Positions 1,695 to 41,738 of a stretch of DNA of 41,738 bases are shown here, piece after piece. A program made the position numbers and the translations under genes. The notes under the pieces are model-generated. The model ran no database searches. It was not told the DNA's origin and saw nothing but the letters and a program-made list of their open reading frames with translations. Source of the stretch: a virus; the IMG/VR virus record IMGVR_UViG_3300044673_000108, positions 1 to 41,738 of that record. One strand, 5' to 3'. The first letter of the stretch is position 1; each line of letters opens with the position of its first letter.

Positions 1695-1791
1695 GCCCAA
1701 CCTTTCGCTCCACTCGGACCCCGCCGCAAGTCCGATATTTGAAGGATTGTGGCTCACCCGCGGCAGGGCCGGTGAGCTTGGTTTGTTGGGC
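1695..1791 (+). other. attC L1
   Basis: R'' GCCCAAC 1695-1701 and R' GTTGGGC 1785-1791. The left arm GCTCCACTCGGACCC pairs with the right arm GGGCCGGTGAGC, with unpaired bases on the left arm, so the top strand is +. It is nearly the same as the attC at 3982-4079, including the spacer around CGCAAGTCCGA. Confidence 0.85.
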
Positions 1792-1792
1792 G

Positions 1793-1945
1793 CTAGTGCC
1801 CATGTGCCTTCGTCCATGCTTCGATGATTTCCACGGCCACCTTTCCGCCGATCAACACCAACAGGATCCAGCCACACCCAGGCCCCTCCCATCGTGTAGA
1901 TGTAACGGTTGTGCCTTCGTCGTTTTTCTCCATCTTTATCTCCAT
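1793..1945 (-). CDS. Cassette L2: small single-span membrane protein
   Basis: 50 aa from ATG 1945 (start MEIKMEKNDEG) behind GGAAAGGAAG. An in-frame ATG at 1963 would add six residues. The hydrophobic stretch GWILLVLIGGKVAVEII is a likely membrane helix. TAG at 1793-1795 directly follows the R' core. It fills the cassette almost completely. No family recognised. Confidence 0.6.
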   Translation of the reverse strand: MEIKMEKNDEGTTVTSTRWEGPGCGWILLVLIGGKVAVEIIEAWTKAHGH

Positions 1946-1966
1946 CGCTTCCTTTCCGGGCATCGC

Positions 1967-2056
1967 GCCCAACCATCTCGCTCAACCCCGCTCACTTCGT
2001 TCGCTCGGACCCGTCAGGCTGCGCCTGCCGGCCCGGGTTAGCTCGGGGCGTTAGGG
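1967..2056 (+). other. attC L2
   Basis: R'' GCCCAAC 1967-1973 and R' GTTAGGG 2050-2056. The left arm GCTCAACCCCG carries an extra C relative to the right arm CCGGGTTAGC. An internal GCTCACTTCGTTCGC segment is typical of these sites. It is almost identical to the attC at 39714-39788, including about 15 bases of cassette sequence upstream of R''. Confidence 0.88.
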
Positions 2057-2194
2057 CTTCCGACGATCCGGTATCAGTGCGCCGAAGAGGCCGCCTGCGA
2101 ACCCGAACCAGTTGCCCACCGAATGCGGGTTTTCCAACGCCCACCCAAAGCAGACACCAGACATGAAAAGCAATAAAAGGCTCGTTTTGCTCAT
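2051..2194 (-). CDS. Cassette L3: small membrane or secreted protein
   Basis: 47 aa from ATG 2194 behind CTGGAGGAAC. The N-terminus MSKTSLLLLFMSGVCFGWAL is a membrane anchor or signal sequence, and a second apolar segment (WFGFAGGLFGALI) follows. The TAA stop is inside the R' core (CCC-TAA-C). No family recognised. Confidence 0.6.
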   Translation of the reverse strand: MSKTSLLLLFMSGVCFGWALENPHSVGNWFGFAGGLFGALIPDRRKP

Positions 2195-2210
2195 GTTCCT
2201 CCAGTCATCG

Positions 2211-2286
2211 CCCTAACCGGGCATTCAACCTGCGTTCGCTGCGCTCACCGGACGGCTGCGCCGCCGGGTTAATGCCAAAGTTAGGG
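2211..2286 (+). other. attC L3
   Basis: R'' CCCTAAC 2211-2217 and R' GTTAGGG 2280-2286. Left arm GGGCATTCAACC against right arm GGGTTAATGCC, with the extra C on the left, so it is oriented +. Confidence 0.82.
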
Positions 2287-2871
2287 CTTCAAACTTTCAC
2301 GCAGCTTCGCTACCCAGGCGCTCCGTCCATTGGCACGTTCAACTTCCTTGGCGTGTTCGGCCTCGTGGTAGCTGATGTCTCGCATGGCCTCCGCATGCGA
2401 CGATGCCAGCCATTCCATGGGGCTCAGTTTCTGGATCGGCTTGAGATAGGAAATATCACAGTCGAAAGAGATGGATTGAATGATCTGCTCCGCCATGAAC
2501 TGCTTGAACCCCTCATGGTCGGGAGTGGGGGGCACCCAGGCTTTCACCTGCGCCAGCATCGTCTCGTATTTCCGGCGCAACTCGTGCGCCTTCCAGATGG
2601 TGTTGTCGCGTTCCTGCACCTTGACGCTGTATGCGAGTTCGGCGGCCTGCGCTGCTTCTTCCTTCGCCATCGTTTCCAGCTTCGCCAGGGTGGCGTGGGC
2701 CTCTTCCAACTTCTTGGTGTGGTAATCGCTGGGCTCGAATCGCTCGGGGATTGGTGCATCGGCGGGTTCGTCGCGCATCATGATCAGGGCTCCCATAGCG
2801 CGGGCGCACGACCAAGCGTAGGTATTGAAGTCGATTCCATCAGCGATGGCGGCGGTGTATCCGGTTGGCAT
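2281..2871 (-). CDS. Cassette L4: coiled-coil protein
   Basis: 196 aa from ATG 2871 (MPTGYTAAIADGIDF) with an AAAGGAACACC leader. A central Ala/Glu-rich segment (residues about 55-115, LEEAHATLAKLETMAKEEAA) should form a coiled coil. The TAA stop lies inside the R' core. It is the largest cassette gene here. It resembles small early proteins of phages rather than resistance-type cassettes. No defined family. Confidence 0.75.
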   Translation of the reverse strand: MPTGYTAAIADGIDFNTYAWSCARAMGALIMMRDEPADAPIPERFEPSDYHTKKLEEAHATLAKLETMAKEEAAQAAELAYSVKVQERDNTIWKAHELRRKYETMLAQVKAWVPPTPDHEGFKQFMAEQIIQSISFDCDISYLKPIQKLSPMEWLASSHAEAMRDISYHEAEHAKEVERANGRSAWVAKLRESLKP

Positions 2872-2911
2872 GGTGTTCCTTTCTGGGGAATTTATTGGTT
2901 GTGTGTTGAAG

Positions 2912-2969
2912 CCCTAACAGGTCGTTGCAGCCGGACGCCTGCGGCGCCTGCTGAACTCCGAAGTTAGGC
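2912..2969 (+). other. attC L4 (short)
   Basis: R'' CCCTAAC 2912-2918 and R' GTTAGGC 2963-2969; 58 bp. Left arm CGTTGCAGCCGGAC against GCTGAACTCCG, with the extra base on the left arm. It has a different arm sequence from most sites in the array. Confidence 0.72.
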
Positions 2970-3377
2970 GCGTGGCATAACGCTGAGATCAATGTATGGA
3001 CCGCCGCACAGGTGGAGCTGCCACGCCCGCCGCCCGTGCGGCTTGGGAGTCGCGTCCTCTTCCCCTTGGCGGAAGATGGTTCCGCAAGCCTTGATGATCG
3101 CGGCCACCAGTTCTTCGGCGGGCACGGCTTCCTCGGTCCAGGGAATTGCCACGAAATCGAAGTCCCGCGCCATGGACCCGTGGACGGTGAGTGCGTAGCC
3201 ATGTTCCCGTGCCACCTTGACCACCCGTGGCAGGAAGGCGAGACACCCGATGGGCATCGCCTCTTTGATCGCCTGCTTGCTCATTCGCTTCTCCCATTCG
3301 TCGGCAAGGTGCGCTGCATATCCGTGGTCCTCGCCCCGTCTCAGCGCCGCGTTGTAAACATCACCCCAGGTCTTCAT
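2964..3377 (-). CDS. Cassette 5: nucleotidyltransferase-like protein
   Basis: 137 aa from ATG 3377 (MKTWGDVYNAALRRGE) behind GGAGAGG; a GTG five codons upstream is less likely. Residues about 65-85 read HGSMARDFDFVAIPW, a GS..RD.D pattern as in minimal nucleotidyltransferase folds. The protein ends YIDLSVMPRA. Related small proteins occur in phages. The TAA stop is in the R' core. This cassette links the two arms of the window: its 3' part recurs at 41573-41738 with one base changed. Enzyme activity is inferred only from the motif. Confidence 0.65.
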   Translation of the reverse strand: MKTWGDVYNAALRRGEDHGYAAHLADEWEKRMSKQAIKEAMPIGCLAFLPRVVKVAREHGYALTVHGSMARDFDFVAIPWTEEAVPAEELVAAIIKACGTIFRQGEEDATPKPHGRRAWQLHLCGGPYIDLSVMPRA

Positions 3378-3393
3378 TCGCCTCTCCACTTGT

Positions 3394-3457
3394 GCCTAAC
3401 CAAGTCGCTCAGCGTCGGACCCGTGTGCCACGGGCCGAGCTAGCTCCGAAGTTAGGC
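3394..3457 (+). other. attC 5
   Basis: R'' GCCTAAC 3394-3400 and R' GTTAGGC 3451-3457. Left arm GCTCAGCGTCGGACCC and right arm GGGCCGAGCTAGC; 64 bp. The left arm carries the unpaired bases. Confidence 0.85.
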
Positions 3458-3700
3458 GTTGACCATCTCGCGGGCCTCATCAAGGTCGCGCTTTAGCTGT
3501 TTGATCTCGCGTTCCAAATCTTCAACCCGTTCTTCTGCTTCCATGGCCCGCCCAAGTGCATCTATCAACGCCCCCCGCAGCGCTTCTGTTTGTTCCTTGA
3601 TCGCGGTCTCCGCGTCGGCCAGCGCTTTCTCCACCTTGGGGCAGGTCTCAGGGACCAGTTCAAAGGCTTGTTTCCGTGCATATTGGGTGTTTCTCACCAC
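3452..3700 (-). CDS. Cassette 6: coiled-coil phage-type small protein
   Basis: 82 aa with tandem GTG codons at 3700 and 3697 behind GGAGGAG. It begins (M)VRNTQYARKQAFELV, and the second half is a continuous heptad-like helix (EERVEDLEREIKQLKRDL). The TAA stop is in the R' core. Similar short proteins with a TCPKVEKAL segment occur in phage early regions, but no function is known to me. Confidence 0.7.
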   Translation of the reverse strand: MVRNTQYARKQAFELVPETCPKVEKALADAETAIKEQTEALRGALIDALGRAMEAEERVEDLEREIKQLKRDLDEAREMVNA

Positions 3701-3722
3701 TCCTCCAATCTCGGCTGCACTC

Positions 3723-3807
3723 GCCTAACCCGGTGCTCAACCTCGCTCGTTTCACTCGCTGGACCCTACGGCCTGCGGCCTTCGGGCCGGTTAGCTTTTC
3801 GTTGGGC
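3723..3807 (+). other. attC 6
   Basis: R'' GCCTAAC 3723-3729 and R' GTTGGGC 3801-3807. Left arm GCTCAACC...GGACCC and right arm GGGCCGGTTAGC; extra C on the left arm. Confidence 0.9.
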
Positions 3808-3808
3808 G

Positions 3809-3964
3809 CTAGCTCATGTAGTGGGCACAGCCCATGCAGTCGCGTTCGTCACGATCCTGGTGCTTGCAGGCGCAGCACGGGAACTGGAATCCTGTCCGAT
3901 TTTCAGCGGGCTCAAATTGATCGGGCAGTTCGTCATCGGTAGGCAGGTAATCAATCAGTGGCAT
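3809..3964 (-). CDS. Cassette 7: small cysteine-rich (zinc-binding-like) protein
   Basis: 51 aa from ATG 3964 (MPLIDYLPTDDELPD) behind AGGAAGGAGAAGGG. The C-terminal half has CxxC and CxxC pairs (PCCACKHQD...CMGCAHYMS), which suggest a zinc ribbon. TAG at 3809-3811 follows GTTGGGCG. Longer readings upstream are only translated attC. Confidence 0.65.
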   Translation of the reverse strand: MPLIDYLPTDDELPDQFEPAENRTGFQFPCCACKHQDRDERDCMGCAHYMS

Positions 3965-3981
3965 CCCTTCTCCTTCCTCGC

Positions 3982-4079
3982 GCCCAACCAGGGCGCTCCA
4001 CTCGGACCCTGCCGCAAGTCCGAAATTTGGTAGGTTGTGGCTCACCTGCGGCAGGGCCGGTGAGCTTGGATCGTTAGGC
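3982..4079 (+). other. attC 7
   Basis: R'' GCCCAAC 3982-3988 and R' GTTAGGC 4073-4079. Arms GCTCCACTCGGACCCTGCC and GGCAGGGCCGGTGAGC. Near-identical to attC L1 over its whole length. Confidence 0.9.
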
Positions 4080-4286
4080 GTATGGGTCGCAATCCCCGAA
4101 GTCGTCAATGCCCGTTTCCCCGGCGCGGACAGGTTCCCCGAGATCCGTCACCTCCACCTCGTTGCTGTAAATCTCACCACCGGCCTGAATCAGTTCGTCG
4201 GCCTCTTCCTGGGTTTCGGCGTCCACATAGAACACCTGTGTCCCACTCGCGGCCTTCACATCGAATGAATAAAGGAATCGCTTCAC
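4074..4286 (-). CDS. Cassette 8: small acidic protein
   Basis: 70 aa from GTG 4286, which abuts the R'' core, so its ribosome-binding site (GAGAGG) lies in the attC. Starts (M)KRFLYSFDVKAAS, with a FYVDAETQEEADELI segment typical of small alpha/beta proteins found in phages and cassettes, and an acidic tail. The TAA stop is in the R' core. Function unknown. Confidence 0.65.
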   Translation of the reverse strand: MKRFLYSFDVKAASGTQVFYVDAETQEEADELIQAGGEIYSNEVEVTDLGEPVRAGETGIDDFGDCDPYA

Positions 4287-4380
4287 GCCTAACCTCTCGC
4301 TCAACGCGGACCCCGGCGGTTCCGCAAGTTTCAAGGTGTCGCTAATCCGTGCCGGGGCCGGTTAGCTTCATTCGTTGGGC
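4287..4380 (+). other. attC 8
   Basis: R'' GCCTAAC 4287-4293 and R' GTTGGGC 4374-4380. Arms GCTCAACGCGGACCCCGG and CCGGGGCCGGTTAGC, extrahelical bases on the left. Closely related to the attC at 39995-40089. Confidence 0.9.
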
Positions 4381-4584
4381 CATCTCTCCAAGAATCTTGT
4401 TCACGGCATCCCGCGCCTTCATGGTCGGTTCGTAAAGGCAGTCCTCTTGGTCGTCGTCATTTAGACACTTCATCAGCCTGGCGTAGGCAGCCTTGAGCCT
4501 TCTTTCGTGGCCTGGCCTAACCTCGCGCTCAAGTCGGACCCCGCCCGTGGTGGCTTCGGTCTTGGTTTCGTCTTTGTCGTTCAT
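4342..4584 (-). CDS. Cassette 9: protein starting and ending inside attC sites
   Basis: 80 aa. AGGAGG and ATG 4584 (MNDKDETKTEATTGG) sit in the variable terminal part of attC 9. The first 23 residues are encoded by that attC, then comes the helical body (RRLKAAYARLMKCL). There is no stop before the R' core, so translation continues into the neighbouring cassette's attC, adding RMKLTGPGTD before TAG at 4342. The C-terminal tail therefore depends on which cassette lies downstream. No family recognised. Confidence 0.65.
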   Translation of the reverse strand: MNDKDETKTEATTGGVRLEREVRPGHERRLKAAYARLMKCLNDDDQEDCLYEPTMKARDAVNKILGEMAQRMKLTGPGTD

Positions 4585-4637
4585 CTGGTTCCTCCTGTTG
4601 GTTTCGATGGGCGGGTCCGCTTAGCTGTTCGTTAGGC
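4515..4637 (+). other. attC 9 (long, carries a start codon)
   Basis: R'' GCCTAAC 4515-4521 and R' GTTAGGC 4631-4637; 123 bp. Arms GCTCAAGTCGGACCCCGCCC and GGGCGGGTCCGCTTAGC. The roughly 60-bp terminal segment holds AGGAGG and ATG on the minus strand. Confidence 0.88.
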
Positions 4638-4916
4638 GTCTCTAAGCGCCTCGGTTGCGATCATCACGGCCTCAAACGACCCGGAAAACCGCTCGGCGGC
4701 GATGTCCTCCAGGGCCTTGCGGAACCGGTCTCTCTCGCGGTCGTGAATCAGGTTCATCTGGGCGCGGAACACGCCCGCCTCTTCAGCGGTGATCTGAACC
4801 CGCTCGCCACGCATGATTGCCTCGGTCTTCTCGGGAGACAGCAGCCCCAGAAAGGGGAGGTCTCGCCTAACCCCGCGCTCAACCGGACCCTTGGGCTCGT
4901 TGCTTTCGTCCTGCAT
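4632..4916 (-). CDS. Cassette 10: protein with attC-encoded N-terminus
   Basis: 94 aa from ATG 4916 (MQDESNEPKGPVERG) behind GGAGGCAAC, both inside the attC 10 loop. The first 17 residues are attC sequence. The body (LPFLGLLSPEKTEAIMRGE ... REDRFRKALEDI-type helix) is a small helical protein. The TAA stop is in the R' core of attC 9. No family recognised. Confidence 0.7.
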   Translation of the reverse strand: MQDESNEPKGPVERGVRRDLPFLGLLSPEKTEAIMRGERVQITAEEAGVFRAQMNLIHDRERDRFRKALEDIAAERFSGSFEAVMIATEALRDA

Positions 4917-4962
4917 GTTGCCTCCGTTCGGCCCAAGGGCCGGTTAGCTTCTTCCGTTGGGC
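4865..4962 (+). other. attC 10 (carries a start codon)
   Basis: R'' GCCTAAC 4865-4871 and R' GTTGGGC 4956-4962. The arms GCTCAACCGGACCCTTGGGC and GCCCAAGGGCCGGTTAGC pair almost perfectly, with C and A unpaired on the left. Confidence 0.92.
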
Positions 4963-6163: not shown

Positions 6164-6322
6164 TTAAGCCCCCAGCCAGATTTCAGGGTTTGACCCCGGA
6201 ACGGTCACGGGTTGAGGCGCAGGCAATTCGCGCACGGGTTTGGCGGCATTGGGATCGGGGTGAATGTGCGGCTCTCCAATGTCCTGGATGATGTCTAAGC
6301 ACTTCTCGCAGTAACGGCGCAT
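6164..6322 (-). CDS. Small protein with N-terminal CxxC-like motif
   Basis: 52 aa from ATG 6322 (MRRYCEKCLDIIQDI) behind GGAGGAACC. YCEKC near the start could bind metal; the second half is proline-rich (ELPAPQPVTVPGS). Short hydrophilic early phage protein of unknown role. Confidence 0.6.
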   Translation of the reverse strand: MRRYCEKCLDIIQDIGEPHIHPDPNAAKPVRELPAPQPVTVPGSNPEIWLGA

Positions 6323-6332
6323 GGTTCCTCCA

Positions 6333-6349
6333 GATGGACATATTCACTT
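6333..6349. repeat. 17-bp intergenic repeat, copy 1 (copy 2 at 6810-6826)
   Basis: GATGGACATATTCACTT is identical in both places. On the minus strand it reads AAGTGAATATGTCCATC and in this copy overlaps the TGA stop of the 6344 gene just before a GGAGGAACC-ATG start. In the second copy its ATG could itself be a start codon. Confidence 0.65.
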
Positions 6350-6565
6350 GCTGTTGAGAAGGGCGGTGCAGAGGCAGAGGGCACAAGAACCCGGCTCATC
6401 GGTTCCGCAGTCGCAGCCATCGTTTTCCATCCAAGCCACGGCTGGCTCAATCGCCGCCTCCAGCTTTGCGTTACGAGCAACGAGGCGATCCCGTTCCTGG
6501 CTGACCTTCAGGTATTCCTTGAAGTAATCCACGGGGTTCCTTTCTTCCAGGTCGATCCTGGACAT
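6344..6565 (-). CDS. Small coiled-coil protein with C-terminal cysteine cluster
   Basis: 73 aa from ATG 6565 (MSRIDLEERNPVDYF). Helical middle (VSQERDRLVARNAKLEAAI) and a C-terminal cluster CDCGTDEPGSCALCLC that probably binds zinc. Similar layouts are common in small phage early proteins. Function unknown. Confidence 0.65.
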   Translation of the reverse strand: MSRIDLEERNPVDYFKEYLKVSQERDRLVARNAKLEAAIEPAVAWMENDGCDCGTDEPGSCALCLCTALLNSK

Positions 6566-6572
6566 GCTCGGG

Positions 6573-6818
6573 CTAGACCCAAGACAGGTTGTTCATTTTG
6601 TGATGCAGGGCGAAGCACTCGGCATGGACCTGTTTGCACTCCACGATTCCGCCATCTTCGGTGCCAGGGATAGCCACCAACACCACGGGCGCGTCAGCCT
6701 TGGACCGACAGATCAGGCACTCGAAATTGACTGGGTTGGGATGCTCGAAAATCCGGCTTGGGTATTTGAGTTCAGGACCGCTCATGAGTGCCTCGGAATG
6801 GTGGTGAAGGATGGACAT
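6573..6818 (-). CDS. Zinc-finger-like hypothetical protein
   Basis: 81 aa if started at ATG 6818 within the repeated element (MSILHHHSEALMSGP), or 70 aa from ATG 6785, which has a GAGGC site. Longer upstream readings are unsupported. CLIC and ECKQVHAECF form a CxxC/CxxxHxxC arrangement consistent with one zinc site. Function unknown. Confidence 0.6.
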   Translation of the reverse strand: MSILHHHSEALMSGPELKYPSRIFEHPNPVNFECLICRSKADAPVVLVAIPGTEDGGIVECKQVHAECFALHHKMNNLSWV

Positions 6819-6910
6819 ATTCACTTCGTTGATGATTGTTGAGACACTATCTCGATGTAACCCGCACAGTTGCTGGGTCCAAGGTTCCGCTCCGTGAAGT
6901 TCACAGGACA

Positions 6911-10818: not shown

Positions 10819-11241
10819 TTAGCGAGGCTTGCGAATCGCTCCAGCCTCGATGAGATCCTGAAGAGCATTAAACACCTTCTCGGCATCTTCATCTGAGGTA
10901 TTAGGATCGGCCAAATATTTTGTGATGGATTGCCGGGCTAGGCGTTTGGCCGGGCTGGGCAAATCATGCGTTGCTCCGTAGATTTCGCTTTCATCTACAC
11001 CCCACCGTGCCGCTGCCAGCTTGATCACCGGCCTCTTCGGGGCGCGCCTGTGGTCATGCCGATATGCGGTCCTCAGGCTGGCCCCGGTGGTGAGGCCAAT
11101 GGCAACGGCTACCGTCTGAAAGGCGGCGTCCTCGCTCATACCCTGCGCCATCAGTTCCGCAACGTCCGAATCCACGAGCTGCATGAAACGATCCCTCTGT
11201 TTCCAGGGATCGTCTTCGCGTGGTTTACGTGGTCGCGCCAT
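10819..11241 (-). CDS. Putative repressor-position DNA-binding protein
   Basis: 140 aa from ATG 11241 (MARPRKPREDDPWKQ). No Shine-Dalgarno site is visible and the upstream stretch is AT-rich (CAAATAATG), so a leaderless transcript like lambda cI from PRM is possible. Basic N-terminus; the middle (RTAYRHDHRRAPKR, AARWGVDESEI) could form a helix-turn-helix. It occupies the cI position, divergent from the Cro-like gene and next to the OR-like block. Repressor function is inferred from position only. Confidence 0.5.
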   Translation of the reverse strand: MARPRKPREDDPWKQRDRFMQLVDSDVAELMAQGMSEDAAFQTVAVAIGLTTGASLRTAYRHDHRRAPKRPVIKLAAARWGVDESEIYGATHDLPSPAKRLARQSITKYLADPNTSDEDAEKVFNALQDLIEAGAIRKPR

Positions 11242-11287
11242 GCATGAAGGATCTACATTATTTGCATATTTTGCAATATCACCCAGA

Positions 11288-11337
11288 CTGTGAGATCGCC
11301 CCTTGCGTTTCTCACAGAAAGAGCGACCATGTAAGGT
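11288..11337 (+). promoter_or_regulatory. Rightward early promoter/operator (PR/OR-like)
   Basis: A perfect inverted repeat CTGTGAGA (11288-11295) / TCTCACAG (11310-11317) overlaps a TTGCGT -35-like box and is followed by AAGAGCGA, as in the OL-like copy at 10485-10523. The start codon at 11338 is only about 20 bases beyond, so the leader is very short. Confidence 0.65.
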
Positions 11338-11607
11338 ATGAGGATCGAGATTCCGAAGGGCCACACCGCCTCCAGCATCGCTGAGGCTTGCCGCGTCCAC
11401 CCGGCGTCTATCAACCGGGCCTTGGCCGATTACGATGAAGCCACGGGCATCCATGTCTGCTCCGGCACGCTCGCCATCGCTATTCACTACGCCACCGGGG
11501 GGCGGGTCAAGTGCTGGGACCTGCGTCCTGACTACTGGAAGCGGGGCCAGATGCCGCCGAAGCCTTTGCGCGTTCAAGACGGCCCACCTTCGGACTTGGC
11601 CGCGTGA
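11338..11607 (+). CDS. Cro/YdaS-like transcription regulator
   Basis: 89 aa from ATG 11338 (MRIEIPKGHTASSIA). The N-terminal helix-turn-helix region (TASSIAEACRVHPAS) and the segment GTLAIAIHYATGGRVKCWDLRPDYW match small Cro/YdaS-type phage regulators, which end with an LRPDYW-like motif. First gene of the rightward operon, directly behind the OR-like block. Probably antagonises the lysogeny repressor. Confidence 0.75.
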   Translation: MRIEIPKGHTASSIAEACRVHPASINRALADYDEATGIHVCSGTLAIAIHYATGGRVKCWDLRPDYWKRGQMPPKPLRVQDGPPSDLAA

Positions 11608-11726
11608 GCCGCCCTCCGCGCTTCCTCAAGGGCCTGCCGCGCCGCTGCCTGAATCTCCGGCGTTCGCCCAAACATGGCGAGGGCTTTGAGGGGGATGAGT
11701 TCGGGGATGTAAACGGCTTTTTCCAT
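11574..11726 (-). CDS. Possible antisense small ORF
   Basis: 50 aa from ATG 11726 (MEKAVYIPELIPLKA) with GGAGG nine bases upstream. The sequence looks like an ordinary helical protein (TPEIQAAARQALEEARRAA) but it opposes the rightward operon and overlaps the end of the Cro-like gene by 34 nt. No gene fits the same interval on the + strand. Confidence 0.35.
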   Translation of the reverse strand: MEKAVYIPELIPLKALAMFGRTPEIQAAARQALEEARRAAHAAKSEGGPS

Positions 11727-11740
11727 TAGGGAGTGCCTCC

Positions 11741-12040
11741 GTGGATCACATTATTGGGCTCGAATTCGGCATAGGCGAGGAGTTCATCGTTGAACTCAAG
11801 TCGGTAATGGATGCCTGCATCGCCAGGGCAATGGAGGAAGATCCCTCTGTTTCCAAGAAATCCATCGCCATGAACCTTGGGTACACCCAGGCGGATCTGA
11901 GCCACTGGCTTTCGCCCAAGTGCCCAAAAACAACGATGCCGTCCCACCTGATGCCGCTTTTCTGCATCTTGGTCCGGGACAACACGCCCCTCTGGATGAT
12001 CCAGGAGGCTTACGAAAAAGGCCGCGTGACGGCGGCCTAG
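11741..12040 (+). CDS. CII-like phage regulatory protein
   Basis: 99 aa from GTG 11741 (MDHIIGLEFGIGEEF). A helix-turn-helix-like segment (SKKSIAMNLGYTQADLSHWL) is followed by MPSHLMPLFCILVRDNTPLWMI, a pattern common to phage regulators encoded second in the PR operon, where lambda has cII. DNA binding and control of lysogeny are likely. Confidence 0.65.
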   Translation: MDHIIGLEFGIGEEFIVELKSVMDACIARAMEEDPSVSKKSIAMNLGYTQADLSHWLSPKCPKTTMPSHLMPLFCILVRDNTPLWMIQEAYEKGRVTAA

Positions 12041-12073
12041 TTCTTAACCGGCTATCTAAAGGAGATCCAGCCG

Positions 12074-12244
12074 ATGACCCAAGATAAGACCAAACCCGAC
12101 TCATTGCAAGCCATCAAAGACGCGATGACCGCGATTGGTTGCGCTGATGCCTGCCTGTTGGGGCGTGAAGGCGTGAGCGAGGCCATGCAGTTCCACCGTG
12201 AGGCTATCCAGTCGCTCCAGAAGGCGCTTGAGGGGGCGGCATGA
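12074..12244 (+). CDS. Small hypothetical protein
   Basis: 56 aa from ATG 12074 (MTQDKTKPDSLQAIK) behind AAGGAG. Helical throughout. Its stop overlaps the ATG of the nuclease gene. Function unknown. Confidence 0.65.
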   Translation: MTQDKTKPDSLQAIKDAMTAIGCADACLLGREGVSEAMQFHREAIQSLQKALEGAA

Positions 12245-12573
12245 GCCACCTTGAGGACACACTCTGGAACCAGATCCACCTTGCCAAGCTGCCCATTCCC
12301 GAGCGTGAGTATCAGGCGATCCCCGGCAGGCGCTTTCGTTGGGACTTCGCGTGGCCTACGGAAGCTGATGGAGCCCTGCTAGTGGAAGTCCAGGGAGGCA
12401 CCTGGAACGCCGGGGCGCATGGCCGTGGGGCTGGGATCAGCCGGGACTGCGAAAAGCTGAACCTCGCCACCCTGAACGGCTGGAAAGTGCTGGTCTTCAC
12501 CTCTGACCAGATCCGAGACGGGAAGGCCCTGGCCTGCCTCCAGTGGTATTTCCGACTGCGGGAGGTTGCGTAA
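12241..12573 (+). CDS. PD-(D/E)XK-type endonuclease (VSR/DUF559-like)
   Basis: 110 aa from ATG 12241 (MSHLEDTLWNQIHLA). RFRWDFAWP and LLVEVQGGTW supply the conserved Asp and Glu-x-x of a small PD-(D/E)XK fold. GAGISRDCEKLNLATLNGWKVLVFT is the usual downstream helix-strand. Such small nucleases are common beside phage replication genes; the substrate is unknown. Confidence 0.7.
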   Translation: MSHLEDTLWNQIHLAKLPIPEREYQAIPGRRFRWDFAWPTEADGALLVEVQGGTWNAGAHGRGAGISRDCEKLNLATLNGWKVLVFTSDQIRDGKALACLQWYFRLREVA

Positions 12574-12574
12574 C

Positions 12575-13420
12575 ATGGCCCGCATCCGAACGATCAAACC
12601 CGAGTTCCCCCAGTCCGAATCCATGGGCCGCGTGTCCCGTGATTCTCGGTTGCTTTTCGTCCTGCTCTGGACCCTTGCCGACGATGACGGGAGGCTTCGA
12701 GGATCCTCGCGAATCCTCGCGAGCCTTCTTTTCCCCTATGACGACGACGCCAAAGACCTCATGGATGCGTGGCTGTCGGAATTGGAGCGTGAAGAGTGCA
12801 TCGTCCGCTACATGATCGACAAGGACACTTACCTCCAAATCCTTAACTGGAACAAACACCAGAAGATAGACAAACCGTCTGCCTCTAAAATCCCAGCTTT
12901 CGACGAATCCTCGCGAACATTCTCGAATCCTCGCGAAGCGTCGTCGGAGGATCAAGGACCAAGGACCAAGGACCAAGGACCTAAGGACCTATCCCCCCTA
13001 ACCCCCCAGGGGGAACTTGTCCCGCCTGCTCCGCAGGCTGAAAAGCCTCCTCGGGTGAAGAAACTCAAAACTACGGAACTCAAGCCGGAGTCGGTTGAGG
13101 CATTCCAGGCGGCATGGGAAACCATCCCTGCGTCCGTGGTCCGGTGGGATGCCAACGTGCGGCGCGACATCGAAGAGGCCGTCGCCAAGGGGAGCCGTGC
13201 CGAGGCGGAGCGGAACTTCCAGGCCATCGTAGACGCCAAGATCGCCACGCCTCGGACGCTGTATGTCGCCCTGTATGCCTACATCACGGAAGGCGAGGGG
13301 CCACGGAAGGGCTTTGTCCAGCATTGCGCGACGTTCTACGGCCCGAAGAAGCGGACCTACCTGGAATGGCTTGAGCGTGCGCGTGAACTCGAATCAGAAC
13401 GCTACGGGGTGTCGGCATGA
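12575..13420 (+). CDS. Phage replication protein (replisome organiser / O-like)
   Basis: 281 aa from ATG 12575 (MARIRTIKPEFPQSE), with GGAGG ten bases upstream; the TTG nine bases earlier is less likely. The first 110 residues, including ILNWNKHQKIDKPS, match the N-terminal winged-helix domain of phage replication initiators. A variable Ser/Pro/Lys linker (about 110-170) is coded by DNA repeats, and a helical C-terminal domain (RRDIEEAVAKGSRAEA) follows. The repeats may be the replication origin, as in lambda O. Confidence 0.75.
   Translation: MARIRTIKPEFPQSESMGRVSRDSRLLFVLLWTLADDDGRLRGSSRILASLLFPYDDDAKDLMDAWLSELEREECIVRYMIDKDTYLQILNWNKHQKIDKPSASKIPAFDESSRTFSNPREASSEDQGPRTKDQGPKDLSPLTPQGELVPPAPQAEKPPRVKKLKTTELKPESVEAFQAAWETIPASVVRWDANVRRDIEEAVAKGSRAEAERNFQAIVDAKIATPRTLYVALYAYITEGEGPRKGFVQHCATFYGPKKRTYLEWLERARELESERYGVSA
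12704..12936. repeat. Iteron-like repeats in the replication gene
   Basis: TCCTCGCGA occurs at 12704-12712, 12714-12722, 12908-12916 and 12928-12936, mostly preceded by AA; spacing within pairs is 10 and 20 bp, one and two helical turns. This resembles an origin embedded in its initiator gene. Confidence 0.65.
12954..12989. repeat. 7-bp tandem repeat AAGGACC
   Basis: Five copies begin at 12954, 12961, 12968, 12975 and 12983 (one extra base before the last). They encode the DQGPRTKDQGPK linker. A 7-bp unit would shift frame on expansion or loss. Confidence 0.85.
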
Positions 13421-13776
13421 GCTATCAGGAAGCGTATCCCTGGCCCGATGAAGGCCATTCGACCGAGCGTGAATACCTGCGGAACTGGAAGGGGATGCCC
13501 CTCAGGTCCGAATGGAACTCCAGCCCCAGCCTGAAGCATTGCCAGACCTGCACCTCCTGCGGCTACAAGTGGGATCAGGTGGACTTCACCTATCGCGGGG
13601 CGATGCTGAATGGCGAGGCCCCCGCCGTGGCGGTCCACCGGATCTGCTGGAACTGCTTCCAATGCGAGACGAACCACGAGCAGACCCGGAAGTTCTGGGA
13701 GGCTGTGGACAAGCCCCAGACGGGCAGCACGGCGAAAAAGACGCCCCAACTCAAAACGATGGGGAGTCTGTCATGA
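13417..13776 (+). CDS. Zinc-binding-like hypothetical protein
   Basis: 119 aa, ATG 13417 overlapping the previous stop (MSYQEAYPWPDEGHS). CQTCTSCGYKW and CWNCFQC give paired cysteines about 40 residues apart, likely one zinc site. Part of the replication-side operon. Function unknown. Confidence 0.65.
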   Translation: MSYQEAYPWPDEGHSTEREYLRNWKGMPLRSEWNSSPSLKHCQTCTSCGYKWDQVDFTYRGAMLNGEAPAVAVHRICWNCFQCETNHEQTRKFWEAVDKPQTGSTAKKTPQLKTMGSLS

Positions 13777-13961
13777 GTATGCCCCGCGAGTATCACCAGG
13801 AGCGATACCGGACCCTGATCGCCCTGGGCCTTTGTCCGAAGTGCGGGAAGGCCGATTCCCGAGCCAACGCGACCACCTGTGAGGCTTGCGGGTCTGCCCA
13901 GCGGGAAACCCAGCGGAAACGACGCGCGGCCCGTAAAGCGGCGTTAGCGGAGGCCGCATGA
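13773..13961 (+). CDS. Small zinc-ribbon protein
   Basis: 62 aa from ATG 13773 ([15 protein letters not shown]), overlapping the upstream stop as ATGA. CPKCGK and CEACGS form a zinc ribbon, followed by a basic tail ([14 protein letters not shown]). Likely nucleic-acid binding; similar small ribbons occur in many phage early operons. Confidence 0.7.
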
Positions 13962-14615
13962 GAATTGAAACCATCGGCCCCGCCACGCTCTACCTTGGGG
14001 ATTGCCGGGACATTCTGCCGACGACGGCCCCGGTTGACCTTGTGCTGACTGATCCGCCGTATGGGATTGGGCGGGATGGACAATCAGCATCTACGGGGAA
14101 GCATGGTGGCCGGAAGGCGTACGAGTTCATGGCATGGGATGACTCAAGGCCCTCGCCAGATCTGTTTGAAATGATATTGGCGGCATCTGAGCGCCAAATC
14201 ATCTGGGGCGGGAACTACTTTGCCGACCTTCTGCCGCCCACTGCGGGGTGGTTGGTTTGGGATAAGGGACAACGGATATCTCAGTCCGACGGCGAATTGG
14301 CATGGAAGTCATGGGGGGGGGGCGCTTCGGATTTGGACGCTCAACAGGGTGGCCATTATGTCTGACGGCGCGGTTCATCCAACACAGAAGCCAACAGAGC
14401 TTATGCGGTGGTGCCTAGGGCTTGACCGTGAATCTAACACTGTTCTTGACCCCTTCATGGGCTCGGGTTCAACGGGTGTCGCATCTATCCAAGAGGGACG
14501 GTCATTCATCGGCATTGAGCGGGAACCCAAATACTTCGACATCGCCTGCAAGCGCATCGCCCTTGCGGTAGCTGAGTCAAAGCAACGCCTGTTCCCCGTG
14601 GATGGTGTTGCATGA
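13958..14615 (+). CDS. DNA methyltransferase (beta-class), interrupted at a poly-G tract
   Basis: Starts ATG 13958 ([15 protein letters not shown]). The N-terminal part carries the catalytic TDPPYGIG motif (about residues 30-37), and the C-terminal part, in another frame, has [10 protein letters not shown] and the AdoMet site [14 protein letters not shown] before the AdoMet motif is beta-class order, adenine-N6 or cytosine-N4. The frames meet at ten consecutive G (14313-14322). Nine G would give one 218-aa protein (SWGGALRIW across the join). With ten, translation stops at 14365. This could be a phase-variable switch, a mutation, or an assembly error. Confidence 0.8.
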
Positions 14616-36516: not shown

Positions 36517-37692
36517 GTGAAAGTCGCGCTGTCAGACAAGATCATCGGGGGGGTGGATCATTCTAGCATCCTGGAAGGGCGGGAACGCCGCACCCTTTGG
36601 GATGCCTCACAGAAGGGGCTGGGCCTGCTGGTCCATAAGTCGGGAACCCTAGCCTGGGTCCTGCGCTACTCCATGCGGGGGCAAAACGGGCAGACCACGC
36701 TGGGGCAATGGCCGGATCTCCCCTATGCCATGGCGAAGAAAAAGGCCCAATCGCTCCGGGGCCAGATTGCGGATGGGATAGACCCAGCCAAGGTGAAGGA
36801 TGGAGCCAAGACGGTTAAGGATCTGGCGGCAGACTTTGAAAAGGACTATCTGCCTGGGCTGGCTGCCTCCACCTCGCGGACCTATAAGATGCTGATCAAG
36901 CGCCATATCCTGCCCAAGATTGGGCGACTGCTGGCGGATGAGGTAGCACTTCAGGACGTTGCGCGGGTCCACCATGCGCTCCGGGGCCAGCCCAGGACGG
37001 CGAACCAAGCATTAGCAGTCCTGTCTCGAATGCTGAACCTTGCGGAGCGGTGGGGATACCGGCCCGTAGGCTCGAACCCATGTAGTGCCATCGGGCGCTT
37101 CCCTGAGACCAAGCGGGAACGATACCTCACGGCGGAGGAAATGCAGACGCTGGGGGACAAGATCAGGGTGGAGGAATTGGCCGGATGGAACCCCTACACC
37201 ATCGCGGCCCTGCGGTTCGCCATGCTCACGGGAATGAGGCGCGGAGAAGTGGCGGGGCTGAAGTGGAGCCAGATCAAGGGAGACAAGGTGGTCTTCACTG
37301 CGCGGCGGGAAGACGCCTCTACGTCATCCAAAACCGGGGCAAAGACGATCCCACTCAACCCGCCTGCCAAGGCCATCCTGGGGGGGCTCACGCGGATGCT
37401 GGGCAGTCCCTACGTGTTCCCGGGTGAACAGGGCGGGCCATGCACGGGAAGCCTCAAGAACCTCTGGTATAAGCTGCGCGAAGAAACCACCTTCGCAGAC
37501 GTTCGGCTCCATGACCTTCGGCATACCTTCGCATCCATCGGCATCATGGAGGGCCTGACTCTTGAGCAGATCGGGGGCCTGCTGGGGCACAAGGCGGCGG
37601 CTACGACCAAGCGATATGCCCATCTAATGGAAGAGGCCGCACGGGTGGCGGCCTCAAAAGTCGGGAGCGAAGTGGTCAAGCGGCTTGGATAG
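36517..37692 (+). CDS. int: Tyrosine integrase (P4/DUF4102 type)
   Basis: 391 aa from GTG 36517 (M)KVALSDKIIGGVDHS. The N-terminal arm-binding domain has LRYSMRGQNGQTTLG, a SAM-like core-binding domain lies at about 105-190, and the catalytic domain has Arg in LTGMRRGEVAGL (about 238), HDLRHTFAS (about 331), LGHK (about 355) and Tyr in TKRYAHL (about 367). It should drive integration at tRNA-Leu. The N-terminal arm domain marks it as a phage/island integrase and not an integron IntI. Confidence 0.92.
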   Translation: MKVALSDKIIGGVDHSSILEGRERRTLWDASQKGLGLLVHKSGTLAWVLRYSMRGQNGQTTLGQWPDLPYAMAKKKAQSLRGQIADGIDPAKVKDGAKTVKDLAADFEKDYLPGLAASTSRTYKMLIKRHILPKIGRLLADEVALQDVARVHHALRGQPRTANQALAVLSRMLNLAERWGYRPVGSNPCSAIGRFPETKRERYLTAEEMQTLGDKIRVEELAGWNPYTIAALRFAMLTGMRRGEVAGLKWSQIKGDKVVFTARREDASTSSKTGAKTIPLNPPAKAILGGLTRMLGSPYVFPGEQGGPCTGSLKNLWYKLREETTFADVRLHDLRHTFASIGIMEGLTLEQIGGLLGHKAAATTKRYAHLMEEAARVAASKVGSEVVKRLG

Positions 37693-39473: not shown

Positions 39474-39692
39474 TTAGTCGTAGCTCTTGAGTAAGGATTC
39501 GAGATTGAGAATCCGGTTTTGCATGGCAGTGATGCCGTTGTGAATCCCGACTTGATGGAACCCGTAGGAATCCAGCAGGGCGCGGCACACGGTCAACTCG
39601 TTCGTTGCCCGTTCAAGTTCATCGGCTAGGCGCATGTTCTCGCTGATGCCGCCTTCGATCTGTTCGTCCATCTTTTGGGCCATGTAATCCAT
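39474..39692 (-). CDS. Cassette R1: coiled-coil protein
   Basis: 72 aa from ATG 39692 (MDYMAQKMDEQIEGG) behind GGAGGAACCAG. Heptad-like (ENMRLADELERATNELTVC ... NRILNLESLLKSYD). TAA stop three bases from the core. Longer upstream starts extend towards attC and are not needed. Function unknown. Confidence 0.65.
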   Translation of the reverse strand: MDYMAQKMDEQIEGGISENMRLADELERATNELTVCRALLDSYGFHQVGIHNGITAMQNRILNLESLLKSYD

Positions 39693-39713: not shown

Positions 39714-39788
39714 GCCCAACCATCTCGCTCAACCCCGCTTCGCTCGGACCCGCGCAAGCGCGGCCCGGGTTAGCTCGGGGCGTTGGGC
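39714..39788 (+). other. attC R1
   Basis: R'' GCCCAAC 39714-39720 and R' GTTGGGC 39782-39788. Arms GCTCAACCCCG...GGACCCG and CGGCCCGGGTTAGC. Nearly identical to attC L2 apart from the loop. Confidence 0.9.
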
Positions 39789-39789
39789 G

Positions 39790-39993
39790 TCAGTTAAGGT
39801 GGTCGTTGATTTGTTCGACAGAGATGGCGAGATCCCCAATCACCTCTTTGGTCGCCGCGATGGTTCGGTGGAAGTGGTCTTCCATTTCGGCCCGCTGGAG
39901 TGCCCGAACCGCCATGACGAGCGATCTCTGGGCAGAGGAAAACTGGTCTCGTGCGGCAATCAGGTATGGAATCTCTTTCGATTCGTGGGGCAT
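39790..39993 (-). CDS. Cassette R2: helical protein
   Basis: 67 aa from ATG 39993 (MPHESKEIPYLIAAR), two bases from R'', so its AGAGGG site is in the attC. Continuous helix (RSLVMAVRALQRAEMEDHF). TGA at 39790 beside the R' core. Function unknown. Confidence 0.6.
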   Translation of the reverse strand: MPHESKEIPYLIAARDQFSSAQRSLVMAVRALQRAEMEDHFHRTIAATKEVIGDLAISVEQINDHLN

Positions 39994-39994
39994 C

Positions 39995-40089
39995 GCCCAA
40001 CCCTCTGCTCAACTCGGACCCCGCCTGGTCCGTGATTTTTAAGGGTTTCGCTAACCGCAGGCGGGGCCGGTTAGCTTCATTCGTTGGGC
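39995..40089 (+). other. attC R2
   Basis: R'' GCCCAAC 39995-40001 and R' GTTGGGC 40083-40089. Arms GCTCAACTCGGACCCCGCC and GGCGGGGCCGGTTAGC. Spacer TTCATTC before R' as in attC 8. Confidence 0.9.
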
Positions 40090-40090
40090 G

Positions 40091-40378
40091 CTACTCATCG
40101 CCGCAGAGGCGACAAAGGTAAACATCTTCTGCCTGGTGCCACCCATCGCCTTCGCAGATGGGCTTGCCGCATGCCTCACAGAACGACACGAACTCGCGGT
40201 CGTTGATGGCGAGGATCTGGGCTCCCTTCGGGAGGCTGGCTCGGATGCCATCAAGCGAGGTGGCCTGGAAATCGAGGGTCAGCCGGTACTCGATCTTGAA
40301 GACCTCGCCCAACCCACCGCTCAACTCGGACCCAACCGCGTCCGGCAACTCTCCGGGATTTCCGGATACTTCGGTCAT
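40091..40378 (-). CDS. Cassette R3: zinc-ribbon protein with attC-encoded N-terminus
   Basis: 95 aa from ATG 40378 (MTEVSGNPGELPDAV) behind GAGGAG, both in the attC R3 loop. The first 24 residues are attC sequence. Body: IEYRLTLDFQATSLDGI, then C-terminal FCEACGKPIC and CRLCGDE forming a zinc ribbon. TAG directly after the R' core. Function unknown. Confidence 0.7.
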   Translation of the reverse strand: MTEVSGNPGELPDAVGSELSGGLGEVFKIEYRLTLDFQATSLDGIRASLPKGAQILAINDREFVSFCEACGKPICEGDGWHQAEDVYLCRLCGDE

Positions 40379-40432
40379 GGTTCTCTCCTCAAAATGGTGC
40401 TGCGGTTGGTCCGGTTAGCGGGACCGTTAGGG
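40307..40432 (+). other. attC R3 (long, carries a start codon)
   Basis: R'' GCCCAAC 40307-40313 and R' GTTAGGG 40426-40432; 126 bp. Arms GCTCAACTCGGACCCAACCGC and GCGGTTGGTCCGGTTAGC, with unpaired C and T on the left. Confidence 0.9.
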
Positions 40433-40651
40433 CTCCCGCCGATCAATGCAGTCATCCATGCTGCGGTAGTAGAGGGCCGGGAACCGCTCGCGCCAGGCTC
40501 TGACTTCGGCCTCCAGCTTCGGTCGCGTGATGCAGCAGAGCGGCTGGGGGAATGCTCTTTCAAAACTGAAGGGGGTGATCAGCGCCCTAACCGTCTCGCT
40601 CAAGTTGGACCCTACCGCGCTCGGCTTCGGGGTTCCAGGTGTCTCACTCAT
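40427..40651 (-). CDS. Cassette R4: protein with attC-encoded N-terminus
   Basis: 74 aa from ATG 40651 (MSETPGTPKPSAVGS) behind AGGGAG, in the attC R4 loop; an ATG six codons upstream is possible. The first 22 residues are attC sequence. The body contains CCITRPKLEAEVRAW and RSMDDCIDRREP. The TAA stop is in the R' core. Function unknown. Confidence 0.65.
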   Translation of the reverse strand: MSETPGTPKPSAVGSNLSETVRALITPFSFERAFPQPLCCITRPKLEAEVRAWRERFPALYYRSMDDCIDRREP

Positions 40652-40711
40652 GGTTTTGTTCTCCCTCATGATTTGTGATGCGGTAGGGCCACTTAGCTCG
40701 GGTCGTTAGGC
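40585..40711 (+). other. attC R4 (long, carries a start codon)
   Basis: R'' CCCTAAC 40585-40591 and R' GTTAGGC 40705-40711; 127 bp. Arms GCTCAAGTTGGACCCTACCGC and GCGGTAGGGCCACTTAGC. Confidence 0.88.
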
Positions 40712-40816
40712 CTCGAACATCGGGCTCGTCTGAATCCCGTTCGGGGTGCCAAATCGCCTGTTCGGCCGTTCTGCTTGGGGTTTCGTGGGGGGCGTGCGCT
40801 CATGGTGGCAAGTCAC
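40706..40816 (-). CDS. Cassette R5: possible basic small protein
   Basis: 36 aa from GTG 40816 behind AGGAAAGAG, (M)TCHHERTPPTKPQAE, or 49 aa from GTG 40855. It ends TSPMFEA with TAA inside the R' core, as other cassette genes do; this agreement is the main support. No other frame fits the cassette. Function unknown. Confidence 0.4.
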   Translation of the reverse strand: MTCHHERTPPTKPQAERPNRRFGTPNGIQTSPMFEA

Positions 40817-40888
40817 ACGTCGCTCTTTCCTATCTCCGCTCGGTTTTCCCGTCACCCCGGTTCAGTCCAGGTCAGAACTGGCGTCTCG

Positions 40889-41012
40889 GCCTAACCTTCA
40901 GCTCAACTCGGACCCCGCCTGCATTGTCTCCCGCTCTCTCTCAGCTTCTCGCTTTCTCGGCTCCGCTCGTCGCCTCGGTGCAGGCGGGTCCGGTTAGCTC
41001 CCTTCGTTAGAC
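40889..41012 (+). other. attC R5 (long)
   Basis: R'' GCCTAAC 40889-40895 and R' GTTAGAC 41006-41012. Arms GCTCAACTCGGACCCCGCCTGC and GCAGGCGGGTCCGGTTAGC. The loop has an ATG, but that frame stops at once, so here the loop is not a gene start. Confidence 0.9.
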
Positions 41013-41246
41013 CTTGTTCCCGTCTGCGTATTCGGTGTGCCAAGAGCAGATAACCCGCCGATTCCAGGCCCGTTCCGCCGCAACCTTCGTTTCCAGCCAT
41101 GGCCCCTCGGCGGCGCACTGGTTGCAAACCGCCCAATGGCTCGTCCCATCAGTCGTGAATAGCCGCGCACTCCCCCCACAGAATGGGCAGGGGTCTAACC
41201 GTGCGCTCGACTCGGACCCTGCCTCAGGTGCGTTCTGATTCGTCAT
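41007..41246 (-). CDS. Cassette R6: Lar-like restriction alleviation protein
   Basis: 79 aa from ATG 41246 (MTNQNAPEAGSESSA) behind AAAGGAACC in the attC R6 loop; the first 18 residues are attC sequence. The body LDPCPFCGGSARLF, AVCNQCAAEGPW and AAERAWNRR matches the Lar family: two CxxC pairs followed by a terminal AxxAWNRR. Rac-prophage Lar relieves type I restriction by promoting modification. The TAA stop is in the R' core. Confidence 0.75.
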   Translation of the reverse strand: MTNQNAPEAGSESSARLDPCPFCGGSARLFTTDGTSHWAVCNQCAAEGPWLETKVAAERAWNRRVICSWHTEYADGNKV

Positions 41247-41292
41247 GTCGGTTCCTTTCTCCGGCAGGGCCGGTCAGCTTGGGTCGTTAGGC
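41193..41292 (+). other. attC R6 (carries a start codon)
   Basis: R'' GTCTAAC 41193-41199 and R' GTTAGGC 41286-41292. Arms GCTCGACTCGGACCCTGCC and GGCAGGGCCGGTCAGC, unpaired bases on the left. Confidence 0.9.
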
Positions 41293-41466
41293 GTAGACCA
41301 GCACCCAAGCCCACGCTGCGAAGCCAATCCCCATGAGAAGGAAGACCACATCCTCGCCCAGGTTGTATTTCACGGTCCTTGGGTAGTCGCCAACCATCAT
41401 GGCGAGGGCTCGCGCAACGATTCCCGCGATGCCGAACCAGAACGAAAACTTGATGTAGAGGTTCAT
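41287..41466 (-). CDS. Cassette R7: two-span membrane protein
   Basis: 59 aa from ATG 41466 (MNLYIKFSFWFGIAG) behind AAGGAGCAC. Two apolar helices (about 5-25 and 42-58) separated by GDYPRTVKYNLGED. The TAA stop is in the R' core. Function unknown. Confidence 0.65.
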   Translation of the reverse strand: MNLYIKFSFWFGIAGIVARALAMMVGDYPRTVKYNLGEDVVFLLMGIGFAAWAWVLVYA

Positions 41467-41497
41467 GTAGTGCTCCTTATATGGGGTTTTTGGTGGC

Positions 41498-41578
41498 GCC
41501 TAACCCGGCGCTCAGCCTTCGCTCACTTCGTTCGCCGGACCCCGGCTGCGCCGGGCCCGGGCTAGCTGTTCGTTAGGC
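41498..41578 (+). other. attC R7
   Basis: R'' GCCTAAC 41498-41504 and R' GTTAGGC 41572-41578. Arms GCTCAGCC...GGACCCCGG and CCGGGCCCGGGCTAGC. Confidence 0.88.
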
Positions 41579-41738
41579 GCGTGGCATAACGCTGAGATCA
41601 ATGTATGGACTGCCGCACAGGTGGAGCTGCCACGCCCGCCGCCCGTGCGGCTTGGGAGTCGCGTCCTCTTCCCCTTGGCGGAAGATGGTTCCGCAAGCCT
41701 TGATGATCGCGGCCACCAGTTCTTCGGCGGGCACGGCT
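41573..41738 (-). CDS. Cassette R8: partial copy of the cassette 5 gene
   Basis: The last 55 codons of the same nucleotidyltransferase-like protein as 2964-3377, cut by the window end. Only one base differs over the aligned stretch (C at 3002, T at 41611). The upstream attC differs (R7 here, L4 there), so the same cassette stands in two contexts. Confidence 0.8.
   Translation of the reverse strand, partial: AVPAEELVAAIIKACGTIFRQGEEDATPKPHGRRAWQLHLCGSPYIDLSVMPRA
41612..41738. repeat. 127-bp terminal overlap with 3003-3129
   Basis: Every base of 41612-41738 equals 3003-3129, and the preceding base differs. A length of exactly 127 suggests an assembly-graph k-mer overlap where the contig end rejoins its own interior. 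Confidence 0.85.

Follow-up and report, generated by a model that had tools for sequence, protein, structure and literature searches.

The question raised by this locus is what kind of genetic unit carries a Lar-like gene at the end of a phage record, how such a unit is read, and how it is exchanged. The 41,738-base virus record (IMGVR_UViG_3300044673_000108; its whole length is called the window here) encodes a terminase, a portal protein and a major head protein, and at both of its ends small genes are flanked by repeats of 57 to 127 nt with inverted GTTRRRY and RYYYAAC ends. When the minus strand was folded, the repeats took the form R'-L'-loop-L''-R''. The extra bases sit in the L'' arm, the same side on which canonical attC sites carry them; only 7 of the 16 folded sites scored at least 2 sd better than shuffled sequences. 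A covariance model built from 13 window sites reported, at E < 0.001, 16 attC sites within the window. They are minus-strand sites without exception and fall in two blocks, 1695-4962 and 39714-41578; three lay outside the training set (E values of 2.6e-10, 9.4e-8 and 7.5e-4). A 17th site (2913-2969) was missed by the model and was identified by its motif and its 86% identity to an attC of locus L327.

What characterizes a CALIN is present in the window: attC sites recur, they have the boxes R', R'', L' and L'', and their hairpin is asymmetric. The intI gene of a complete integron was not found in this phage. The tyrosine integrase that it encodes on the plus strand (36517-37692) is a phage integrase (PHROG_1, 2.8e-63) and was ruled out as IntI, scoring 26 bits against TIGR02249 (cut-off 265). 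IntI over the cut-off was found in none of the 14 phage records searched. The window cassettes are integron gene cassettes, with about 17 attC sites and without an integron integrase. The attC model was also applied to 80 of the 102 loci of a viral pattern scan, to 25 loci from two earlier viral scans and, among the matches listed, to 34 of the 120 host pattern loci. It reported no site in 79 other viral loci with Tad2 relatives (526,112 bases), and the array had no nucleotide match among 50,697 phage records.

All array features lie on the minus strand. At the right end of the record, an attC at 41498-41578 (37 bits, outside the training set) is followed by a 59-aa gene (41287-41466), the stop codon of which lies within the R6 attC (41193-41292, 84 bits), at its R' box. 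The R6 attC folds and holds the Shine-Dalgarno sequence and the ATG of R6 in its loop; copies 95-98% identical to it occur in the genome of Geothrix fuzhouensis SG12 (G015), and a 95% identical copy occurs in locus L007 of phage G001. R6 itself stops on the TAA within the R' box of the following attC (40889-41012, 124 nt, 71 bits), which is of the Geothrix super-integron type and about 85-94% identical to Geothrix attC sites. Beyond it, an attC at 40585-40711 (73 bits) precedes a 74-aa gene (40427-40651) that starts in the attC and stops in an R' box, and an attC at 40307-40432 (62 bits) precedes a 95-aa gene (40091-40378) that also starts in its attC and is common to phages G001, G002 and G003. 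The block continues with an attC at 39995-40089 (91 bits), a 67-aa gene (39790-39993) and an attC at 39714-39788 (47 bits, outside the training set, 97-98% identical to a prophage attC), past which lies a 72-aa gene (39474-39692). At the extreme right, 41572-41738 is a second copy, 99% identical, of the left-array cassette at 2963-3129, and the record ends inside this copy; this could reflect a duplicated cassette, or else a contig that stops where the array differs between members of the sampled population.

The left block begins with an attC at 4865-4962 (79 bits) and a 94-aa gene (4632-4916) that starts in the attC and is partly common to the G015 prophage. It is followed by an attC at 4515-4637 (69 bits) with an 80-aa gene starting in it (4342-4584), an attC at 4287-4380 (87 bits) with a gene of about 70 aa whose start is uncertain (4074-4286), and an attC at 3982-4079 (93 bits) with a cysteine-rich 51-aa gene (3809-3964). 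The attC at 3723-3807 (43 bits) precedes an 81-aa gene (3452-3697), and that at 3394-3457 (54 bits) precedes a 137-aa gene (2964-3377), the 3' part of which recurs at the right end. After the motif-only attC at 2913-2969 comes a 196-aa gene (2281-2871), and after the attC at 2211-2286 (22 bits, outside the training set, 96% identical to two attC sites of phage G005) a 47-aa gene (2051-2194). The last two sites, at 1967-2056 (50 bits) and 1695-1791 (91 bits), are followed by a 50-aa gene (1793-1945) and by a gene of about 68 aa with an uncertain start (1494-1700), respectively.

R6 is an ORF of 79 aa (41007-41246) with an ATG start and a TAA stop. The preliminary description had proposed a Lar-like gene in a cassette array at this place, and this was confirmed: the ORF and its CPFCGG, CxxC and AWNRR motifs are present, and the gene is an array unit flanked by attC sites. 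The profile search against the Lar family that it had suggested gave matches above the curated cut-offs, by PF14354 (Lar_restr_allev) at 44.4 bits over residues 16-64 (cut-off 28.6) and by TIGR03655 at 46.1 bits over residues 17-64 (cut-off 39.6), and the nearest PHROG was the 'Lar-like' PHROG_599 (50.3 bits). The protein has the zinc-ribbon pattern of the family, with two CxxC pairs (the first being C20/C23) and the WNR motif (W61-N62). By its sequence, R6 is a member of the Lar family. Rac Lar dampens type I restriction, for example by EcoKI, and the family name suggests that R6 most likely has the same putative role. Taken alone, the Lar observation is correct and ordinary.

The start of R6 differs from that of other Lar proteins. 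Codons 1-18 lie inside the attC and the Lar domain begins straight after them, whereas in other phages a number of Lar relatives have no such leader and begin with the domain itself. A structure model from a six-sequence alignment showed a confident beta hairpin and helix at residues ~20-60 and a low-confidence start (pLDDT ~53 at residues 1-10). The attC-encoded leader is most likely a tolerated disordered extension. A full-length R6 relative was absent from 61 Holophagaceae genomes, in which the matches covered the attC-encoded leader only.

The attC sites link the phage to a bacterial host. A bacterial genome scan with a 22-base attC motif returned mainly Geothrix and other Holophagaceae contigs among the matches listed, with a small number assigned to other taxa, and five of the six genomes reached via these loci encode a true IntI over the cut-off (~460 bits, cut-off 265). 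One window cassette (40712-41012) had 83-85% identity with cassettes of the Geothrix chromosome over its full extent between R' boxes, and the flanks were unrelated. The window phage probably infects Geothrix or a close relative. The body of that cassette (40712-40888), the sole window cassette close to host cassettes over its whole length, contains no convincing ORF on either strand and may be an ORF-less, promoter-type cassette. The genome of G. fuzhouensis SG12 carries a super-integron and, in addition, a Mu-like prophage region, recognized by its Mu portal, Mu F-like and DUF3164 genes; nine phage-type attC sites, some of them 95-98% identical to window sites, were found in the prophage region (L323, G015 C2:320001-340000, at 11185-14051). 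Since this array resides in a cultured strain, it is testable.

Phage and host arrays were scored with one attC model, so their polarity is comparable. The host set comprised seven super-integron loci with 78 cassettes, and the phage-type set of 64 cassettes came from the window, from six other viral contigs (seven loci) and from the prophage region of G015; phage G003 was excluded from the count because its array is a near copy of that of G002. The canonical ORF was the longer one in 72 of the 78 host cassettes, and at least 80% of the cassette body was covered by the canonical ORF in 60 and by the reversed ORF in 4 of the 78. Among the phage-type cassettes, the reversed ORF covered at least 80% of the body in 60 of 64, against 11.6 expected from shuffled bodies. 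Six of the eight cassettes in five contigs not used before were also reversed. These sequences show that the phage array genes run on the bottom strand of attC, opposite to the host cassettes, and the canonical arrangement, with the gene on the attC top strand and 5' of its own attC, is not that of the phage-type arrays. One viral contig with three attC sites, L092 (IMGVR_UViG_3300034191_000055), is an exception, since two of its cassettes look canonical. In MW202573, a phage of the survey in PMC9892861, the annotated genes run against the top strand of the three attC-like sites that they surround. No convincing attC site was detected in TJE1 with the model and scripts, or with scripts in the stretches examined of Pseudoalteromonas phage H101 and of Polaribacter phage P12002L.

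We then considered where the reversed genes start and stop. With genes called by a ribosome-site rule, 64 of the 74 phage-type attC sites gave a gene and 10 gave none; 22 of these genes start inside the attC and 42 just after it. Of the 56 genes that are followed by an attC, 29 end on the TAA within its R' box and 20 exactly one base ahead of the box (49/56). Stops on the TAA are partly forced, because the box supplies a stop in one frame of three, whereas those one base before the box are not forced by its sequence. The R' box is also the position at which IntI cuts. For translation, each unit is nearly self-contained, with a ribosome site and a start codon in the loop or just past the attC and a stop codon at R'. 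Openness was greater at the start site than in the arms in all 20 folds (20/20), which is what a loop position predicts. According to a review, ribosomes are hindered by attC hairpins in mRNA, and the block can be relieved by a short ORF inside the attC (PMC8876359). By analogy, a start codon in the attC loop would relieve the hairpin block likewise.

That the units are interchangeable, as had been proposed from the window alone, was borne out by comparison of the arrays. Comparison of the 74 attC sites yielded 31 pairs with an identity of 85% or more across no less than 85% of the length, and 30 of the 31 precede unrelated bodies. Conversely, homologous bodies had different attC sites in 10 of 11 lines, several of which are short matches. 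The R6 attC with its leader occurred four times, in the window, another phage and the prophage, joined to four different gene bodies. Identity mostly ended a few bases from the attC ends, and some pairs shared 11-25 bases more, which hold the ribosome site. The cassette at 40091-40378 matched phage G002 at 83% by tblastn, with 95% nucleotide identity of the body, and phage G001 at 72%. The TerL, portal and head proteins of the window were matched in G001, and no match to them was found in the examined stretches of G002 and G005; cassettes therefore seem to cross between phages without this relationship. Two phage attC arrays, L333 and L335 of phages G007 and G008, contain homologous cassettes with 70-76% nucleotide identity.

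The content of the cassettes was examined with profile libraries. Pfam matches among the 64 phage cassette proteins comprised two Lar, one Tad2, one Acb2/Tad1-hairpin and two SpoU proteins, HTH and HNH domains in one protein each, and weak zinc-ribbon matches; most proteins had no family. PHROGs added a DNA methyltransferase, and PADLOC gave weak, mostly generic matches. The two SpoU-type methylases are probably those of L333 and L335. A third Lar cassette was present in a contig not used before, and the two Lar cassettes outside the window scored 34.3 bits each (cut-off 28.6). The anti-Thoeris Tad2 cassette of phage G005 scored 86.2 bits (cut-off 25) and matched SptTad2 with an E value of 5.7e-15, and we therefore assign it to Tad2. 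Its gene (L331:4406-4642, IMGVR_UViG_3300030325_000004) lies in a closed reversed cassette, and a methyltransferase-like gene (6274-6858) lies past the last attC of the same array. The ORF L329:12942-13211 was rejected as an Acb2/Tad1-hairpin match, as it has no Pfam match.

Lar or Tad2 was found in none of 75 host cassettes (the 78 minus 3 without an ORF of at least 40 aa) and in none of 133 other small phage ORFs (149 flank ORFs minus 16 cassette genes, gene pieces and opposite-strand ORFs removed by hand), of which one matched Acb2/Tad1-hairpin. The resulting difference, 3/64 against 0/208 for Lar and Tad2 together (Fisher 0.013), is weak, as the families were picked after inspection. Tad2 is also common in phages generally (512 matches), so the single Tad2 cassette is weak evidence alone. 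The occurrence of Lar in two further phages and of Tad2 in another makes a counter-defence role plausible for some cassettes. The preliminary description had taken the array as a counter-defence set expressed early; such a role is plausible for some cassettes, Lar and Tad2 among the families, and is not supported for the array as a whole, in which most proteins have no family. Early expression would be in keeping with the strand that the cassettes share with other non-structural genes.

Taken as a whole, the following account is in our judgment probable: R6 is a cassette of a phage-borne attC array that has no integrase of its own. The array would be read as part of the leftward non-structural operon of the phage, and the start codon in the loop would let ribosomes begin despite the attC hairpin. 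The insertion, removal and swapping of cassettes may be the work of host IntI on folded bottom strands, in combination with recombination at the conserved attC arms, with co-infecting phages, prophages and the host array as potential partners. Some cassettes, including Lar and Tad2, would serve counter-defence, and the array would be an exchangeable set of small early genes.

Several other explanations were weighed against this account. The arrays could be ordinary canonical cassettes whose reversed ORFs are antisense artefacts of GC-rich DNA. The canonical strand does cover at least 80% of 31 of the 64 phage bodies, and antisense ORFs are long on such GC-rich DNA; however, the reversed frame takes its substitutions chiefly at codon position 3 (2/2/12, 3/3/31 and 6/8/18 at positions 1/2/3 in three homologous cassette pairs, and a less clear 20/17/35 in a fourth, partial pair), the reversed ORFs, which alone were scanned, include Lar, Tad2, HNH, HTH and SpoU, and host arrays have the opposite polarity with the same attC model. 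These data already contradict the artefact, which is very improbable. A different doubt concerns R6, which could be a zinc-ribbon protein that merely resembles Lar and has another role, such as nucleic acid binding or the regulation of transcription or of a toxin. Consistent with this, what matches the family is a short zinc ribbon, R6 had no match among solved structures (best E value 1.1), and the profile of RalR, a DNase toxin, matched it weakly as well (18.3 bits, cut-off 113). Its scores above curated cut-offs in two libraries, its Lar-like PHROG and the recurrence of Lar as a cassette in other phage arrays argue the other way, and we consider such a role possible, though on balance doubtful.

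The remaining alternative concerns the means of exchange rather than the gene. The attC sites could be relics of host super-integron DNA that now serve as linkers with a ribosome site, and the swaps could be made without IntI by the phages' own homologous recombination between short attC arms. The phages lack IntI, and different sites show strong conservation between L'' and R''. Exchange breakpoints fall at R'' as well as R', and similarity is often lost at R'' or inside the loop, so IntI chemistry alone is insufficient as an explanation; a serious rival to IntI, or a partner of it, is homologous recombination between these conserved arms. On the other hand, many diverged sites and phages have retained the R and L boxes and the extra-helical bases, host cassettes match one window cassette over its whole R'-to-R' extent, and IntI is supplied by the host. 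We regard the relic explanation as unlikely.

The phage-borne cassette array was compared with known systems. Phage CALINs have been described, with 17 reported and IntI1 active on five of six tested sites, and counter-defence benefits have been proposed for them (Qi et al. 2023, PMC9892861). As far as the available sections of that survey describe them, they resemble the present arrays in combining attC sites and small genes, DNA methyltransferases included, without IntI. Unlike the arrays here, which have up to ~17 sites, a tie to a host super-integron and reversed genes starting in the attC loop, the examples described there are short (such as TJE1, with three attC sites and four ORFs), and those sections do not point out a reversal. 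The sedentary chromosomal integron of Geothrix and other Holophagaceae has the same attC type and one cassette in common with the window, whereas its genes are canonical and belong to other families, such as CcdB and GNAT. R6 resembles the Lar family (PF14354, TIGR03655) in its zinc ribbon and departs from it in its attC-derived N terminus. As in the short ORFs inside attC outlined in PMC8876359, translation would begin within the attC; there it is a separate short ORF, whereas here it is the cassette gene itself, on the other strand. Preprints and most subscription journals aside, the literature searched did not describe phage cassettes that are reversed and have their start codons inside attC. 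The array is of a known kind, the phage CALIN, apparently in a form undescribed so far.

We propose a broader interpretation with somewhat less than an even chance of being correct, namely that phages of integron-bearing bacteria have evolved a cassette format of their own. Its units would be reversed and self-contained, start in the attC loop and stop at the box cut by IntI; the phages would trade counter-defence genes via the host integrase, and the cassettes would be silent, being antisense, if captured by the host. The joining of nearly identical attC sites to unrelated genes bears on how gene cassettes are made. If the proposed account is true, phage biology would gain an integron-like system of cassette exchange, in which translation begins at what is also a recombination site, and phages of integron-bearing hosts could be searched, by way of their attC arrays, for unrecognized counter-defence genes.
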